A stretch of DNA of 64,000 nt from Chitinophaga pinensis (GTDB lineage: Bacteria > Bacteroidota > Bacteroidia > Chitinophagales > Chitinophagaceae). Position numbers and translations under genes: made by a program. Shown one piece after another: positions 3,482-60,574 of the stretch. The notes under the pieces were generated by a model that did not search any database, was not told where the DNA came from, and saw nothing but the letters and a program-made list of their open reading frames with translations. The stretch spans positions 1-64,000 of the forward strand of contig CAMAXV010000010.1 in assembly GCA_945862385.1 (NCBI GenBank). Direction: 5' to 3'. The stretch's first letter is position 1. The number at the start of each line of letters is the position of its first letter.

Positions 3482-3558
3482 ACAGCCAGGCACAAGGCAC
3501 AAGGGATAAGGCACGAGGCACAAGGCACGAGGGATGAGTTTACCTACCTCTGGTAGGG
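3482..3558 (+). repeat. Stop-adjacent GGCACRAGG repeat array (copy b)
   Basis: It begins one base after the permease stop with ACAGCCAGGCACAAGG, continues through several GGCACRAGG units and GGGATAAGG, and ends GGGATGAGTTTACCTACC then TCTGGTAGG. The whole block recurs inverted at 5121-5210, so the two copies flank the dehydrogenase gene. Read relative to its own upstream gene, each copy has the same orientation. Confidence 0.8.
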
Positions 3559-3588: not shown

Positions 3589-4782
3589 ATGGTGAAGTTA
3601 GCAATGTTAGGTTCCGGATTTATCGGAAGGTTTTATGCAGACTCCATTCAGGGTTTGCGCAGCAAAGACAGGATAGTATCGATCTATTCCAGAAGGGAAG
3701 AGCAGGCAAAGAAATTTGCTGAGGATTATGGTTGTGATCATTATACAACTGATATGGAAGAATCGATTGCCCATCCTGATGTGGACATGGTCTGTATCTC
3801 CCTTCCCAATAACCTGCATGAGGCGGCTGTAATGTTGTGTATCAAACACAAGAAAGCCGTTATTACAACAAAACCCCTGGGCCGCAATGCTGCTGAAGCC
3901 AAGCGGATGCTTGAAGCTGTTGAGCAGGCTGGAATTTTCAATGGCTACCTGGAAGATCTTGTGTATACTCCCAAATTCCTCAAGGCTTATGAAAGTGTAA
4001 AGAATGGTGCACTCGGCAGGATCCTTTGGGCGAAGTCCAGGGAAACACATCCTGGTCCGCACAGCGACTGGTTCTGGGACATCGAACAGGCCGGAGGAGG
4101 TTGTATCCTTGACCTTGGATGCCATTGTGTGGAGATTACTCGCAGTTATATCGGGAAAGATATTCGTCCGGTTGAAGTAATGTGCTGGGCAGATACCCAG
4201 GTGAAACCTATTGATGCGGAAGACAATGCAATCGGACTGGTAAAATATGAAAATGGAGCAATCGGACAGTTTGAAGTGAGCTGGACATTCCGCGGTGGAT
4301 TAGACCTGCGTGATGAAGTCATGGGTTCAGAAGGAACCATCTGGGTCAATGGCTTTTTGCGAACCGGTTTTGATATGTTCACAACAGGCAAGGGTGCGGA
4401 TTACGTGGCAGAAAAAGCGGAAACCAATTCAGGCTGGCTGTTTCCGGTAGGTGATGAACTCAACGAACTGGGATATAATCACATGTTCACGGAGATGTTT
4501 AATTGCTATGAGCGCGGTACCAAACCCAGGGAAACCTTCTATGATGGATACCTTGTGAATGCTGTGCTGGATGCAGCTTACAAGAGTGTGAAGTCAAAAA
4601 TCTGGGAGCCCGTCATCCTCGACGACTGGCGCGGTAAAACCGGTGTCACAAAAGATAGCCACCTCATAGAATTTGATGCAGACCATTATCTTGTAAAAGA
4701 AGAGATGACCCATTATGGCACGAAGAAACTGATCCTGAAGGAGAAGGCGACGGGGAAGATTGTTGAGAGGATAGTGGAATAG
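3589..4782 (+). CDS. Gfo/Idh/MocA family NAD(P)-dependent oxidoreductase
   Basis: A 397-residue cytoplasmic dehydrogenase. The N-terminal Rossmann fold begins KLAMLGSGFIGRFYAD (nucleotide-binding GxGxxG) and reaches the TTKPLGRNAAEAKRML motif, equivalent to the conserved E/T-K-P of the family. The C-terminal half holds the alpha/beta substrate domain, with GGGCILDLGCHCVE as the usual D-x-G-x-H region. Family members oxidise sugars, inositols or related alcohols, or act as trans-dihydrodiol dehydrogenases; the substrate here is unknown. The last three codons lie in an 8-bp tandem repeat (4773-4820). Confidence 0.85.
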   Translation: MVKLAMLGSGFIGRFYADSIQGLRSKDRIVSIYSRREEQAKKFAEDYGCDHYTTDMEESIAHPDVDMVCISLPNNLHEAAVMLCIKHKKAVITTKPLGRNAAEAKRMLEAVEQAGIFNGYLEDLVYTPKFLKAYESVKNGALGRILWAKSRETHPGPHSDWFWDIEQAGGGCILDLGCHCVEITRSYIGKDIRPVEVMCWADTQVKPIDAEDNAIGLVKYENGAIGQFEVSWTFRGGLDLRDEVMGSEGTIWVNGFLRTGFDMFTTGKGADYVAEKAETNSGWLFPVGDELNELGYNHMFTEMFNCYERGTKPRETFYDGYLVNAVLDAAYKSVKSKIWEPVILDDWRGKTGVTKDSHLIEFDADHYLVKEEMTHYGTKKLILKEKATGKIVERIVE

Positions 4783-4820
4783 TGGAATAGTGGAATAGTG
4801 GAATAGTGGAATAGTGGAAT
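4773..4820 (+). repeat. Six tandem copies of AGTGGAAT across a stop codon
   Basis: Six exact 8-bp units run without interruption. The last residues of the dehydrogenase (I-V-E) and its TAG stop at 4780-4782 are written by the first units; the rest lie downstream. Because 8 is not a multiple of three, gain or loss of units leaves the first stop in place but varies the 3' untranslated length. Confidence 0.9.
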
Positions 4821-4828
4821 AACTTTTT

Positions 4829-4917: not shown

Positions 4918-5075
4918 AATTCCCCTCCTGGCCAGGAGGGGTGGCAAGAATTAGGCTGAGCCATAGGCGAAGACAAATTCTTGACGGGGTGGTGGGAATA
5001 TAAATAAAATCCACCACCCCGTCTTTCGATTCGCTTCGCTCTCGAAATCCACCCCTCCTGGCCAGGAGGGGAATT
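4918..5075. repeat. Modular nested-palindrome element, copy A (complete)
   Basis: A non-coding element of about 158 bp. Its ends are inverted repeats of about 27 bp, each built round the 20-bp perfect palindrome CCCCTCCTGGCCAGGAGGGG. Inside, in order: a hairpin CAAGAATT...AATTCTTG, a 13-bp pair GACGGGGTGGTGG ... CCACCACCCCGTC (4983-4995, 5011-5023), and a hairpin TTTCGA...TCGAAA. Related elements occur at 7951, 24517, 41321 and 60392. The gap 4783-5210 holds no gene; it consists of the tandem array, the terminator, this element and repeat copy c. Confidence 0.85.
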
Positions 5076-7950: not shown

Positions 7951-8130
7951 AACTCCCCTTTCGCCCTGGCGGATAGGTTTAGATAGGGGTGGTGGAATTA
8001 AACTCAAACTATGACTATCCTATAACCTGAGAAGTCTGTTAGTTATCTTATCCCACCACCCCGTCATTCATTCAACTTCGCCTTTGGCTCAGTTTCATTC
8101 ATGCCACCCCTCCTGGCCAGGAGGGGATTA
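7951..8130. repeat. Modular nested-palindrome element, copy B (degenerate left arm)
   Basis: The right half is intact: CCACCACCCCGTC, a variable hairpin (AACTTCGCC/GGCTCAGTT region), then GCCACCCCTCCTGGCCAGG continuing AGGGGA. The left arm begins ACTCCCCT but then departs to CGCCCTGGCGGATAGG before GGGGTGGTGG. The inner loop is replaced by about 60 bases of other sequence. It fills most of the 428-base gap between the BI-1-like gene and the adhesin; the rest is AT-rich leader without recognisable sites. Confidence 0.75.
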
Positions 8131-15040: not shown

Positions 15041-15080
15041 AAACAGCCGGATACAAGGCACAAGGCACGAGGCACGAGGT
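15041..15080 (+). repeat. Stop-adjacent GGCACRAGG repeat array (copy d)
   Basis: Two bases after the OmpA-like gene's stop comes ACAGCCGGATACAAGG, followed by GCACAAGG, GCACGAGG and GCACGAGG. It lies between the stop codons of convergent genes. Confidence 0.8.
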
Positions 15081-24321: not shown

Positions 24322-24420
24322 ATGAGTTGAGAGAATTAAGTTGAGAGAGGTTAGTTGAGAGAATTAAGTTGAGAGAATTAAGTTGAGTTTCTCTCAACTC
24401 TAAACTTTCAACTTCAAACT
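24322..24420. repeat. GTTGAGAG array with opposite arm (copy 1)
   Basis: Directly after the DUF502 stop, four GTTGAGAG units joined by AATTAA-type spacers (to about 24385) are followed by the reverse complement (TCTCTCAACTC, then TTTCAACTTCAAACT) to 24420. The two arms can form a long imperfect hairpin. Related arrays lie at 31676-31899 and 34105-34192. Confidence 0.8.
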
Positions 24421-24432: not shown

Positions 24433-24516
24433 TGCAGATGGGAAATGGGGTGGTATTGGCCGAATTGAATATGACTCTTAGGCATAGTGCTTGTGAGTCG
24501 CACAAAAAGTTTAGAT

Positions 24517-24564
24517 CCACCCCATCCGCCGCGGCGGACAGGCTCTGGCCAGGATGGGAATTAT
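24517..24564. repeat. Modular nested-palindrome element, copy C (single variant arm)
   Basis: The sequence CCACCCCATCCGCCGCGGCG, then GACAGGCTCTGGCCAGG and ATGGGAATTATT, corresponds to one outer arm of the element family. The CCCCTCC/GGAGGGG core has changed to CCCCATCC/GGATGGG, and a GC-rich hairpin (CCGCCGCGGCGG) has been inserted. It sits in the leader of the phospholipase-like gene. Confidence 0.65.
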
Positions 24565-29875: not shown

Positions 29876-31663
29876 CTATGCATAAATCCCCTCAATCACA
29901 TCTTCATACTTGCTCATGATGACCTTTCTTTTCAGCTTTAGTGTTGGAGTGAGTTCTCCACCGTTGATAGTCCATTCCGCATTGAGCAGCTCGAATTTCT
30001 TCACCTGTTCAACGGGGTTGAACTGGAGGTTAAATCTTTCCACAATGGTTTTATAATGCTCAAGTACCTTGGGATTGTTGAGTATTTTATCTGCTGAAGA
30101 GGTATCTACATCATTCTTTTCGCACCAGCTCCTGAGGCTTTCCATGGATGGAACAATGAGGGCTGCTGTGAACTTGCGTTCTGCTCCTACCACCATCATC
30201 TGTTCGATATAGGGTGATTCCTTCATCTTGTTCTCTATGGGCTGCGGTGCCACATATTTGCCACCACTGGTCTTAAAGATTTCTTTCTTCCTGTCGGTTA
30301 TCTTCAGGAAATCGCCTTCAGTCCAAACTCCGATATCTCCCGTATGGAACCATCCTTCACTGTCTATACATTCTGCGGTGAGGTCAGGCCTTTTGTAGTA
30401 TCCCAGCATCACATTGGAACCTTGGCAGCAGATTTCTCCGTCTTCAGCGAGTTTGACGGTAACATTACGGATGACTTTACCCACTGTGCCAAAGCGTCTG
30501 CCGCCGGCATCGAATCGGTTTACGCTGATAACAGGAGATGTTTCGGTGAGACCATAACCTTCCATCACCACAATTTTGGCAGCAGTGAAAACACGGAGTA
30601 AACGAACCTGACATGCTGCTGCGCCTGTTACAATCGCCCTGACTTGACCCCCAAGGCCTTCCCGCCATTTGGAAAAAATGAGTTTATTGGCAATGGCGAG
30701 TTGAATATTGTAGAATAATCCAAGGTTCTTGTCCACCTCATACCTGTTACCCACAGATACCGCCCAGAAGAAAAGGGTTTTCTTGATTCCGGTAAGCTCT
30801 CTTCCCTTGTTGATAATCCTTTCATATACTTTTTCAAGAAGCCGGGGTACAGTAGAAAACAGGCTGGGTTTGACTTCTCTAAGGTTGTCTCCGATTGTAT
30901 CCAGGCTTTCTGCATAGTATATGGAAACACCTCTGTACAAGTAGATATAGCTGACAACCCTTTCAAAGATATGGTTCAGTGGCAGAAAGCTGAGGGAGCG
31001 GTCTTTGGGTCCACATACTGGTTCCAGGATCTCCTCCACATTCATAATGTTATCAAGGATGTTGTGGTGACTTAGCATGACCCCTTTAGGAAATCCGGTA
31101 GTTCCTGAAGTGTAGAGTATTGTTGCCAGTTCTTCAGCTTTGACTTTGTCTTTTGTAGCCTGTAAATGTTGTATTTCTTCTTCAGTGCCGGTATGCAGGA
31201 GGTCTTTCCAGTGCAGCGCCTGCTGGATTTCATTGAATGTGTATACGGCCTGCACTGTGGGGGTAGCGTGGCGGATCGACTGCACCTTTTCGTAAAGTTC
31301 CTTATCACTCACAAACACCAGTTTAACTGACGCATCGTTCAGGATGAACTCCAGCTCATTGACATTGATGGTTGGGTAGATAGGCGTAAGGACAGCACCG
31401 GATTGCTGAACGGCCATATCCAGAATCAGCCACTCCGGACGATTGTTGCTGAGTACAGCTATTTTGTCGCGGCCTTCGATGGTGCCATCCTGAAAACCAA
31501 TTCCAGCTTTCATCAACCCCATACTCAGGCTGTCGACCAAGCGTTTGACATCCTTGGTTCTGTATTTCTTCCACACGCCATCTTCCTTGGCGGCGAGCAT
31601 GTCTTCCTGAGGAAACTGGGCCATTTGCCAGTCAATGCAGTCGAATAGTCTTTTTGGAGTCAT
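29876..31663 (-). CDS. Long-chain fatty-acid-CoA ligase (AMP-forming)
   Basis: 595 residues, FadD15-like branch. The adenylate-forming motifs are present: TILYTSGTTGFPKGVMLSHH (A3, phosphate-binding loop), MEGYGLTETSPVIS (A5), GWFHTGDIGVW (A7) and ITDRKKEIFKTSGGKYVAPQ (A8-A10 hinge region). It activates fatty acids to acyl-CoA through acyl-AMP, at or near the inner membrane. Monocistronic, on the minus strand. The right direct repeat of the HigBA unit lies 14 bases past its stop, and GTTGAGAG repeats begin 12 bases upstream of its ATG. Confidence 0.93.
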   Translation of the reverse strand: MTPKRLFDCIDWQMAQFPQEDMLAAKEDGVWKKYRTKDVKRLVDSLSMGLMKAGIGFQDGTIEGRDKIAVLSNNRPEWLILDMAVQQSGAVLTPIYPTINVNELEFILNDASVKLVFVSDKELYEKVQSIRHATPTVQAVYTFNEIQQALHWKDLLHTGTEEEIQHLQATKDKVKAEELATILYTSGTTGFPKGVMLSHHNILDNIMNVEEILEPVCGPKDRSLSFLPLNHIFERVVSYIYLYRGVSIYYAESLDTIGDNLREVKPSLFSTVPRLLEKVYERIINKGRELTGIKKTLFFWAVSVGNRYEVDKNLGLFYNIQLAIANKLIFSKWREGLGGQVRAIVTGAAACQVRLLRVFTAAKIVVMEGYGLTETSPVISVNRFDAGGRRFGTVGKVIRNVTVKLAEDGEICCQGSNVMLGYYKRPDLTAECIDSEGWFHTGDIGVWTEGDFLKITDRKKEIFKTSGGKYVAPQPIENKMKESPYIEQMMVVGAERKFTAALIVPSMESLRSWCEKNDVDTSSADKILNNPKVLEHYKTIVERFNLQFNPVEQVKKFELLNAEWTINGGELTPTLKLKRKVIMSKYEDVIEGIYA

Positions 31664-31675
31664 ATGGGCAAGTGT

Positions 31676-31899
31676 AGTTGAGGGTGAGTAGTTGAGAGTG
31701 AGTAGTTGAGAGTTGAGAGTTGAAAGTTGAGAGTTGAGAGTTGAGAGTTGAGAAAAATGGTTTGAAATGAAGATAATTAGAAATTACAAAATATTCAACT
31801 TTCAACTAAACTCTCTCAACTCCCTCTATTTACTCTCATCTCTCAACTTTCAACTAAACTCTCCTGCCTTTGGCAGGCAAGCTCAACTAAATTCTCTCA
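31676..31899. repeat. GTTGAGAG array with opposite arm (copy 2)
   Basis: Plus-strand GTTGAGAG-type units fill 31676-31755. After about 40 AT-rich bases, the reverse-complement units (CTCTCAACT, TTTCAACT) run from 31797 to 31899, ending at the stop of the dipeptidyl peptidase gene. A small hairpin CCTGCC-TTT-GGCAGG (31863-31877) is embedded. On the minus strand the array starts directly after the stop codon, as in the other copies. Confidence 0.85.
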
Positions 31900-34104: not shown

Positions 34105-34192
34105 AGAATTAAGTTGAGCGTTGAGAGAAACCAGTTGCACTTCTCTCAACTATAAACTCTCAACTCTCAACTATAAATTCTCAACTCTTTCA
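34105..34192. repeat. GTTGAGAG array with opposite arm (copy 3)
   Basis: A short plus arm (AAGTTGAGCGTTGAGAGAAA) is followed by opposite-strand units (TTCTCTCAACTATAAACTC, TCAACTCTCAACT and so on) that run up to the stop codon of the amidohydrolase gene. On that gene's strand the array again begins directly after the stop. Confidence 0.8.
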
Positions 34193-41320: not shown

Positions 41321-41380
41321 CCACCACCCCGGCACCTGCCTACGGCAGGTTTGCCACCCCTCCTGTCCAGGAGGGGAATT
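41321..41380. repeat. Modular nested-palindrome element, copy D (right half)
   Basis: Six bases after the stop of the sortilin-like gene the sequence reads CCACCACCCCGG, then the hairpin CCTGCC-TAC-GGCAGG (41335-41349), then GCCACCCCTCCTGTCCAGG and AGGGGAATT. This is exactly the right half of copies A and E, with a different hairpin module in the variable position. Confidence 0.75.
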
Positions 41381-60391: not shown

Positions 60392-60574
60392 AACTCCCCT
60401 CCTGGACAGGAGGGGTGGCACGAATGAGTCTGCACCGAAGGTGCAGGCGAATGAGCTTGCCTGCCGAAGGCAGGTGACGGGGTGGTGGACCATTTCTCTT
60501 GATTCCACCACCCCGCCTCAACAAATTCACTTCGTTCATTTGTCTCGGCACCCCTCCTGACCAGGAGGGGAATT
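60392..60574. repeat. Modular nested-palindrome element, copy E (complete)
   Basis: 183 bp between ccoG and fixH. Outer arms ACTCCCCTCCTGGACAGGAG and, at the other end, CTCCTGACCAGGAGGGGAATT-type sequence (one-base variants of the copy A arm). Inside: hairpins CTGCACC-GAA-GGTGCAG and CCTGCC-GAA-GGCAGG, the pair GACGGGGTGGTGG ... CCACCACCCCGCC, and ACAAAT...ATTTGT. Same order of parts as copy A, but the variable hairpins differ. The 255-base gap contains nothing else. Confidence 0.85.

Follow-up and report, generated by a model that had tools for sequence, protein, structure and literature searches.

A REP-like family of modular palindromic elements in Chitinophaga pinensis and its association with genes for DUF559, a putative Vsr-like endonuclease

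Which enzyme, if any, spreads a family of short structured repeats that codes for nothing itself? The question is raised by a 64,000-nucleotide stretch of Chitinophaga pinensis DNA (contig CAMAXV010000010.1 of assembly GCA_945862385.1, hereafter the window), where paired palindromes enclose hairpins that differ from copy to copy. REP-like palindromes are common bacterial repeats, and to our knowledge RAYT is the sole motor that has been widely proposed for them. The available text of PMC3733652 treats REP families without a dedicated transposase as an open point. The initial annotation described five copies of a putatively mobile, REP/MITE-like family that exchanges hairpin modules, and suggested a linked Y1 transposase as its partner. 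We propose that these elements are a REP/REPIN-like mobile family whose nuclease is a DUF559 protein and not RAYT, and that the copies of the window are non-autonomous members. We put the probability of this reading at about 60%.

The window lies in contig C10 of a genome of 80 contigs (3.07 Mb, 99.5% complete). A scan of the window for CCCCTCCT-N4-AGGAGGGG, with up to three mismatches allowed, returned six sites, all of them exact, against 0.19 expected from shuffling, and none of 100 shuffles reached six. The inner repeat CCACCACCCCG, with at most one mismatch, was found at seven sites (six exact) against 0.95 expected; 0 of 100 shuffles reached seven. With counts so far above those of shuffled sequences, the five copies are real.

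Two of them are full length. Copy A (4918-5075, no strand assigned) consists of two inward-facing units with different hairpin modules; its palindromes occupy 4922-4941 and 5052-5071 and its inner repeats 4985-4995 and 5011-5021. Copy E (60392-60574, no strand assigned) carries the commonest module pair of the genome, a double hairpin plus type B. The plan that had been ascribed to all five copies is complete in these two. In copy B (7951-8127, no strand assigned) the right palindrome (8107-8126) is intact, the inner repeats lie at 7985-7995 (one mismatch) and 8053-8063, and the left arm is decayed. Copy C (about 24515-24562, no strand assigned) is a decayed half-element, CCCATCC...GGATGGG plus AATT, and copy D (41321-41380, minus strand) is a single half made of an inner repeat, a hairpin module and a palindrome (41357-41376). 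Halves thus do occur alone, as had been proposed. The outer palindrome had been described as a perfect one of 20 bp; this is correct only for copy A and for the right palindrome of copy B, which have GGCC at the centre, and has to be amended for copies D and E, in which 8-bp arms surround a 4-nt loop. As single strands, copies A and E fold far better than shuffled sequences (z -13.2 and -11.3, respectively); the decayed left arm of copy B folds no better than its shuffles, and copy C gives a z of -1.2.

The family extends well beyond the window. Genome-wide there are 65 exact outer palindromes of the form CCCCTCCT-N(0-8)-AGGAGGGG, and the reversed-pattern control gave zero. The window and 38 fetched stretches, whose sites came from 40 scored candidates out of 55 and from the genome palindrome list, contain at least 22 full-length copies (palindrome, inner repeat, inner repeat, palindrome), all copy counts being lower bounds. 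The other copies in these stretches are halves, single palindromes and decayed copies. About 14 element sites fall within about 55 kb of small contigs (C27, C35, C40, C59, C75 and C78), far more densely than elsewhere; the density may reflect a region rich in elements or the assembly itself.

The anatomy of the family was read from 61 extracted half-units. Each half is one polar unit composed of the tag AAYT, the 20-nt palindrome CCCCTCCTnnnnAGGAGGGG, an exchangeable hairpin module and GGGGTGGTGG. A full element is two such units facing each other in inverted orientation, as in a REPIN. The four bases before the palindrome are A in 50 of the 61 half-units, A in 59, Y (C or T) in 55 and T in 59. 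Outside the palindrome, sequence conservation in the 61 half-units ends sharply, and beyond the tag mainly A-richness is left. On the other side of the palindrome, TGGC or a similar sequence precedes the hairpin module, which is followed by CGGGGTGGTGG or a near variant.

The modules fall into a 62-nt double hairpin (22 half-units), a GAACGAAGTGA-centred type (26), a CCAGACCGAG type (7) and others (6); the counts are approximate because automatic sorting placed a few related modules in the GAACGAAGTGA-centred class. With at least three module types in the 61 half-units, each used on either side, the hairpins are interchangeable across the genome. On our reading of the units, the two modules within a copy differ in all 22 full copies. 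Among 21 double-hairpin units, both-sided changes occur in four of the nine pairs of the first module hairpin, and the outer palindrome and the second hairpin are nearly invariant. For the whole structure, which was derived from one of these 21 related sequences, none of 500 shuffles reached the observed number of both-sided changes. Full copies may be identical at up to 179 of 183 positions and have unrelated flanks; therefore whole units disperse. These data support the initial view of the repeats as a structured, REP/MITE-like family whose members exchange hairpin modules.

One candidate motor for elements of this kind is a Y1 (RAYT/TnpA-REP) transposase, which would make them classical REPs or REPINs. 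The general anatomy resembles a REPIN pair, and the genome has two genes that match Pfam Y1_Tnp. However, no element was found within 1.5 kb on each side of either gene. Among the 12 palindrome-bearing genomes of a set of 60 relatives, 17 Y1 hits were collected (10 strong and 7 weak, the latter at 22-34 bits), and none has pyrimidine-armed palindromes anywhere in its fetched stretch. Moreover, six of these 12 genomes gave no Y1_Tnp match; their completeness is 79% for G013 and 92-100% for the other five. The tag is AAYT, not GTAG. We consider a Y1 motor very improbable and reject Y1/RAYT as the partner, since no such palindromes lie in the stretches fetched around the Y1 hits and half of the palindrome-bearing genomes have no Y1 hit. 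The partner found instead is a DUF559 gene.

In contig C35, an ORF between two half-elements that face it encodes a DUF559 protein of 120 aa, the only DUF559 match in the 3.07-Mb genome. The gene-bearing, putatively autonomous copy (L057, 963-1561) has the same terminal inverted units as the gene-free copies. Its single protein matches DUF559 and, below the cut-off, MTES_1575, both of which are nuclease-type families; no transposase of a known class was found in this copy. An array of gene cassettes or an integron between the elements of the dense contigs C27, C35, C40 and C59 was also considered and dropped: by eye, only DUF559 lies between facing halves.

An AlphaFold2 model of the protein, based on 86 sequences, has a mean pLDDT of 91. 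The closest solved fold is that of N. gonorrhoeae NGO0050 (3hrl; Z 15.7, rmsd 1.0, 92 residues aligned). Further matches are the catalytic domain of the homing endonuclease I-Bth0305I (3r3p; Z 11.2, rmsd 2.9, 94 aligned) and E. coli Vsr (1cw0; Z 9.5, rmsd 2.4, 99 aligned). E25, H71 and D80 are invariant in the 86 DUF559 sequences and D54 is conserved in at least 90% of them; going by the name of the motif, we take these four to be the EDxHD active-site residues, which are likely catalytic. Judged from model and sequence, the DUF559 protein of the element is a putative endonuclease of the YcjD/Vsr-like, EDxHD type. In the available text of earlier reports, EDxHD enzymes are described (PMC3943268), a Caulobacter DUF559 protein is called Vsr-like (PMC12907096), one DUF559 gene is placed in the EDxHD family (PMC9403480) and YcjD is listed as a PD-(D/E)XK member (PMC1189080).

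In four pairs of gene-bearing copies dN/dS was 0.39, 0.13, 0.13 and 0.07, the value of 0.39 resting on 8 changes only, and two further pairs were saturated; these ratios indicate that the gene-bearing copies are under purifying selection. A translated flank search of 12 gene-bearing loci of the same genus found only two orthologous pairs that share flanks (four downstream flanks were too short). Gene-bearing copies within the genus occupy different neighbourhoods.

After 3hrl, the nearest solved relative is a homing endonuclease, and the likeness to I-Bth0305I and Vsr includes both the fold and the conserved E, D, H, D residues. DUF559 genes might be homing endonuclease genes that inserted into the loop of REP-like elements already in place. 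The enzyme would then recognise the element without spreading it, and something else would have made the repeats. A weak match to the PADLOC homing-endonuclease profile fits this explanation, as does the presence of one to three DUF559 genes per DUF559-bearing genus genome against up to 65 palindromes. However, homing would be expected to fill many copies per genome and few are filled. The tendency of the palindrome type to track the flanks of DUF559 (see below) argues weakly in the same direction, the search for mobility genes having covered Y1_Tnp. Unlike in the EDxHD homing endonucleases, the gene belongs to a REP-like element and, as a free-standing 120-aa ORF between element halves, is therefore not in an intein; its product, with predicted activity, corresponds to about the catalytic domain only. 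On balance we regard homing as unlikely.

To see how general the association is, named genomes were scanned with an alignment of 12 DUF559 proteins. The best 80 of at least 579 confirmed stretches were used, which biases the sample towards one DUF559 subfamily and towards Bacteroidota. A palindrome was defined by a 7-bp pyrimidine arm containing four or more C and by a loop of up to 8. This definition was set after the first loci had been viewed and was applied identically to genes and control ORFs. Of the 75 scorable loci among these best 80 of at least 579, 57 have a palindrome within 350 bp upstream and 54 within 350 bp downstream; 43 are flanked on both sides and 68 on at least one. The corresponding numbers for 430 control ORFs of the same stretches are 14, 22, 2 and 34. 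For both sides, 43 of 75 loci from the best 80 of at least 579 against 2 of 430 neighbouring ORFs give a Fisher p of 3e-39, the loci being non-independent. Seven of the 75 loci in this selection of 80 from at least 579 have no palindrome on either side.

The signal peaks close to the gene. In the best 80 of at least 579 stretches, the first 250 bp from DUF559 contain a palindrome at 53 of 73 loci on the upstream side and at 52 of 77 on the downstream side; the second 250 bp do so at 6 of 72 and 8 of 77, and bins beyond 1 kb hold 0-2 loci each. An inverted-pair score of at least 20 between the flanks was reached by 29 of 78 DUF559 loci (again from the best 80 of at least 579), 19 of 769 cross-locus pairs and 4 of 337 control ORFs. 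The link between DUF559 and palindromes is thus specific, both here and in several phyla. Outside Bacteroidota, palindromes on both sides were seen in records of Thermodesulfovibrio (Nitrospirota), two Acidobacteria, Phycisphaerae, Desulfuromonadales and Doudnabacteria, and on one side in records of Rickettsiales, Pseudomonadales, Wenzhouxiangellaceae and Akkermansiaceae; a Calditrichota record has no palindrome at its DUF559. The tag is one-ended: ARYT adjoins exactly one side of 72 of 162 palindromes from the best 80 of at least 579, neither side of 90 and never both sides, with a background of 2% per position.

Many DUF559 genes have strong hairpins before and after them, and these might simply serve the gene, by ending transcription or damping the expression of a risky nuclease; the scattered copies would then have arisen through gene conversion or chance. 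A role of REPs in transcription termination or mRNA stability has been proposed (in the available text of PMC3733652). Against this explanation, palindromes are scarce at the control ORFs, and tens of copies lie away from the one DUF559 gene of the C. pinensis genome. Orientation also speaks against it: it was readable on both sides at 20 of 45 two-sided loci, with 12 in-in, 6 out-out and 2 mixed. We find a purely gene-serving role improbable.

DUF559 matches are present in 21 of the 60 relatives, our genome included, and element halves flanking the gene are visible by eye at many loci. Under the strict rule, palindromes lie on both sides in only 8 of 22 scorable loci, a set that remained after 4 weak hits were dropped and 4 loci proved too short among 30. 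DUF559 was found in 9 of 12 genomes with the palindrome and in 12 of 48 without it. As the palindromes of G024 are only the two copies beside its gene, we reassigned this genome; the comparison then becomes 8 of 11 against 13 of 49 (p 0.006, uncorrected for relatedness). The three palindrome-bearing genomes of the 12 without a DUF559 match are G009 (79% complete), G017 (92%) and G026 (98%).

Viral contigs contributed 38 DUF559 loci; 27 could be scored, and 8 of these 27 carry palindromes on both flanks. The plasmid collection yielded 33 records with a DUF559 match, of which 8 loci were viewed. All eight, from E. coli, N. gonorrhoeae, Sinorhizobium, Azospirillum, Deinococcus, Photobacterium and two cyanobacteria, show by eye C-rich palindromes of the CCCTCTCC, CCTCCCCC or CCCC types, some of them imperfect, on at least one side. 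On a plasmid of Synechocystis sp. B12 (L267), a CCCTCTCC palindrome precedes the DUF559 gene and an imperfect one follows it, and the adjoining gene carries the annotation BREX PglX. The DUF559 family is broad, and we count this member beside a BREX gene against our preferred reading.

If DUF559 acts on the palindromes, the sequence of the repeats might be matched to that of the enzyme's own flanks. Thirty genomes were searched for two palindromes, CCCCTCCT and CCTTCCC (reversed-pattern controls 0-1). The fetched DUF559 locus of each genome was excluded from the counts because copies beside the gene are present by construction. Elsewhere in the genome, CCCCTCCT occurs in 18 of 20 genomes whose DUF559 is flanked by CCCCTCCT, at 0-81 copies per genome, as against 3 of the 9 in the CCTTCCC-flank group (p 0.004). 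Of these three, G082 also carries CCCCTCCT arms next to its DUF559 gene. Conversely, CCTTCCC occurs elsewhere in 5 of the 9 genomes of its own flank group and in 2 of the 20 of the CCCCTCCT group (p 0.016). No further exact copy away from the gene was found in 2 of the 20 CCCCTCCT-flank and 4 of the 9 CCTTCCC-flank genomes, and neither palindrome occurs in the thirtieth genome, whose flanks are of a third type. The palindrome type thus tends to follow the flanks of DUF559 outside the DUF559 locus as well.

On a tree of 86 DUF559 proteins, 78 of which could be typed, the palindrome type changes 18 times against a mean of 34.2 for shuffled labels, with 0 of 200 shuffles as low; the minimum possible is 3, and the resolution of the tree is weak. 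Such clustering could arise from the shared descent of gene and genome alone.

Mobility, which the initial annotation had only inferred, is supported by the dispersed near-identical copies described above and by a comparison of filled and empty sites. A search with the flank of G013's gene-bearing copy gave matches in 28 of 37 genus genomes; among 20 fetched loci, 3 have the palindrome. G013 and G030 carry the full gene-bearing element, and G008 has a single half at the same place. In G017, G004 and G006, close relatives with 88-92% identity in the flank, this site has no element. Homology between the G013 locus and G004 breaks at 1276 and 2030, and 15 bp stand in place of about 750 bp. The element has thus been gained or lost at this site among close relatives. 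The comparison gave no clean target-site duplication and no exact insertion joint, because the difference between the two loci reaches about 44 bp and 150 bp past the palindromes. At the other gene-bearing locus compared for an empty site, homology stops before the element. A second conserved stretch, resembling TGTAAACTTTTTTAGGACGNGTC, borders the element on its outer side at the gene-bearing copies of G013 and G030 (L244 and L245), at the half-copy of G008 and at six copies of the C. pinensis genome (L028 at 1006, L042 at 981, L063 at 935, L061 at 1500, L057 at 1571 and L054 at 2580); it may be part of the element, its target or another repeat.

We infer the following course of events for a DUF559-driven family. 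The autonomous member would consist of two inward-facing units with the endonuclease gene in the central loop, and such a gene-bearing copy may move itself. DUF559 would recognise the folded or cruciform palindrome and nick or cut it near the tag, and repair or replication would then copy the unit into new intergenic sites. Gene-free pairs, such as those of the window, would be passengers of DUF559. For AAYT repeats the enzyme would thereby play a role like that proposed for the unrelated HUH nuclease RAYT/TnpA-REP at GTAG REPs.

The family resembles the REP/REPIN and RAYT system (the REPtron) in that short tagged palindromic units form inverted pairs in many copies and flank one or few nuclease genes. 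It differs in the tag (AAYT, or ARYT in part of the other genomes, instead of GTAG), in the added hairpin modules and the GGGGTGGTGG tail, and in the nuclease, a Vsr-like DUF559 protein unrelated to HUH/Y1, the link to Y1 being absent on testing. Like the CGTC-tagged REPs, according to the available text of PMC3733652, our elements are tagged palindromes that often stand in facing pairs away from Y1 genes; the sequence is different, and the tag of the 61 units is not CGTC (or TGTC/CCTC). That text assigns no dedicated transposase to CGTC-tagged REPs, regards their links to other transposase genes as merely fortuitous and, in the part available, does not name DUF559. Gene-free copies end in the same inverted units as a gene-bearing copy, which recalls MITEs and their autonomous DNA transposons; unlike MITEs, the element has no known transposase and its units are themselves palindromes. 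No clean target-site duplication was seen at the filled and empty sites compared. No report of a link between DUF559 and repeats was found in the mainly open-access literature searched.

A broader interpretation, which we advance tentatively and at close to even odds, is that DUF559 (E. coli YcjD and its kin) is a second, independent class of REP-mobilising nucleases, in which the enzyme of each lineage recognises, and has seeded, its own C-rich palindrome. Its scope would include Bacteroidota, Proteobacteria, cyanobacteria and candidate phyla. If true, it would explain many intergenic repeats of the CCCTCTCC or CCCCTCC kind that have had no known motor, and orphan REP families and the widespread nuclease family DUF559 would gain each other as partners. 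DUF559 would also acquire a role, and ycjD of E. coli would become a testable enzyme-substrate system.

The E. coli gene lies between sapF and fabI. At L275 (2458-3045), from a laboratory-developed E. coli strain, a long inverted repeat is found at the start of ycjD and two CCCTC-type palindromes at and after its end. A 41-bp piece downstream of ycjD was matched alone in one E. coli record, and the median number of matching places per genome is 4; therefore this piece appears to recur. A place covering at least 80% of the ycjD region was found in 3362 of 5426 E. coli genomes. We considered the presence or absence of ycjD as a sign of mobility and dropped it, since the three exceptions that were read carry an efflux-pump cluster upstream of fabI. 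A 2026 paper on the EefABC pump (PMC12817139) reportedly mentions ycjD.

The window of C. pinensis contains further short repeat families, of the ATAGTGGA, AGTTGAGAGA and GGCACGAGG types, some of them inverted at distant sites. Such short repeats lie at 1031-1092, 3482-3538, 4771-4826, 15043-15079, 24325-24411, 31662-31863 and 34138-34188.
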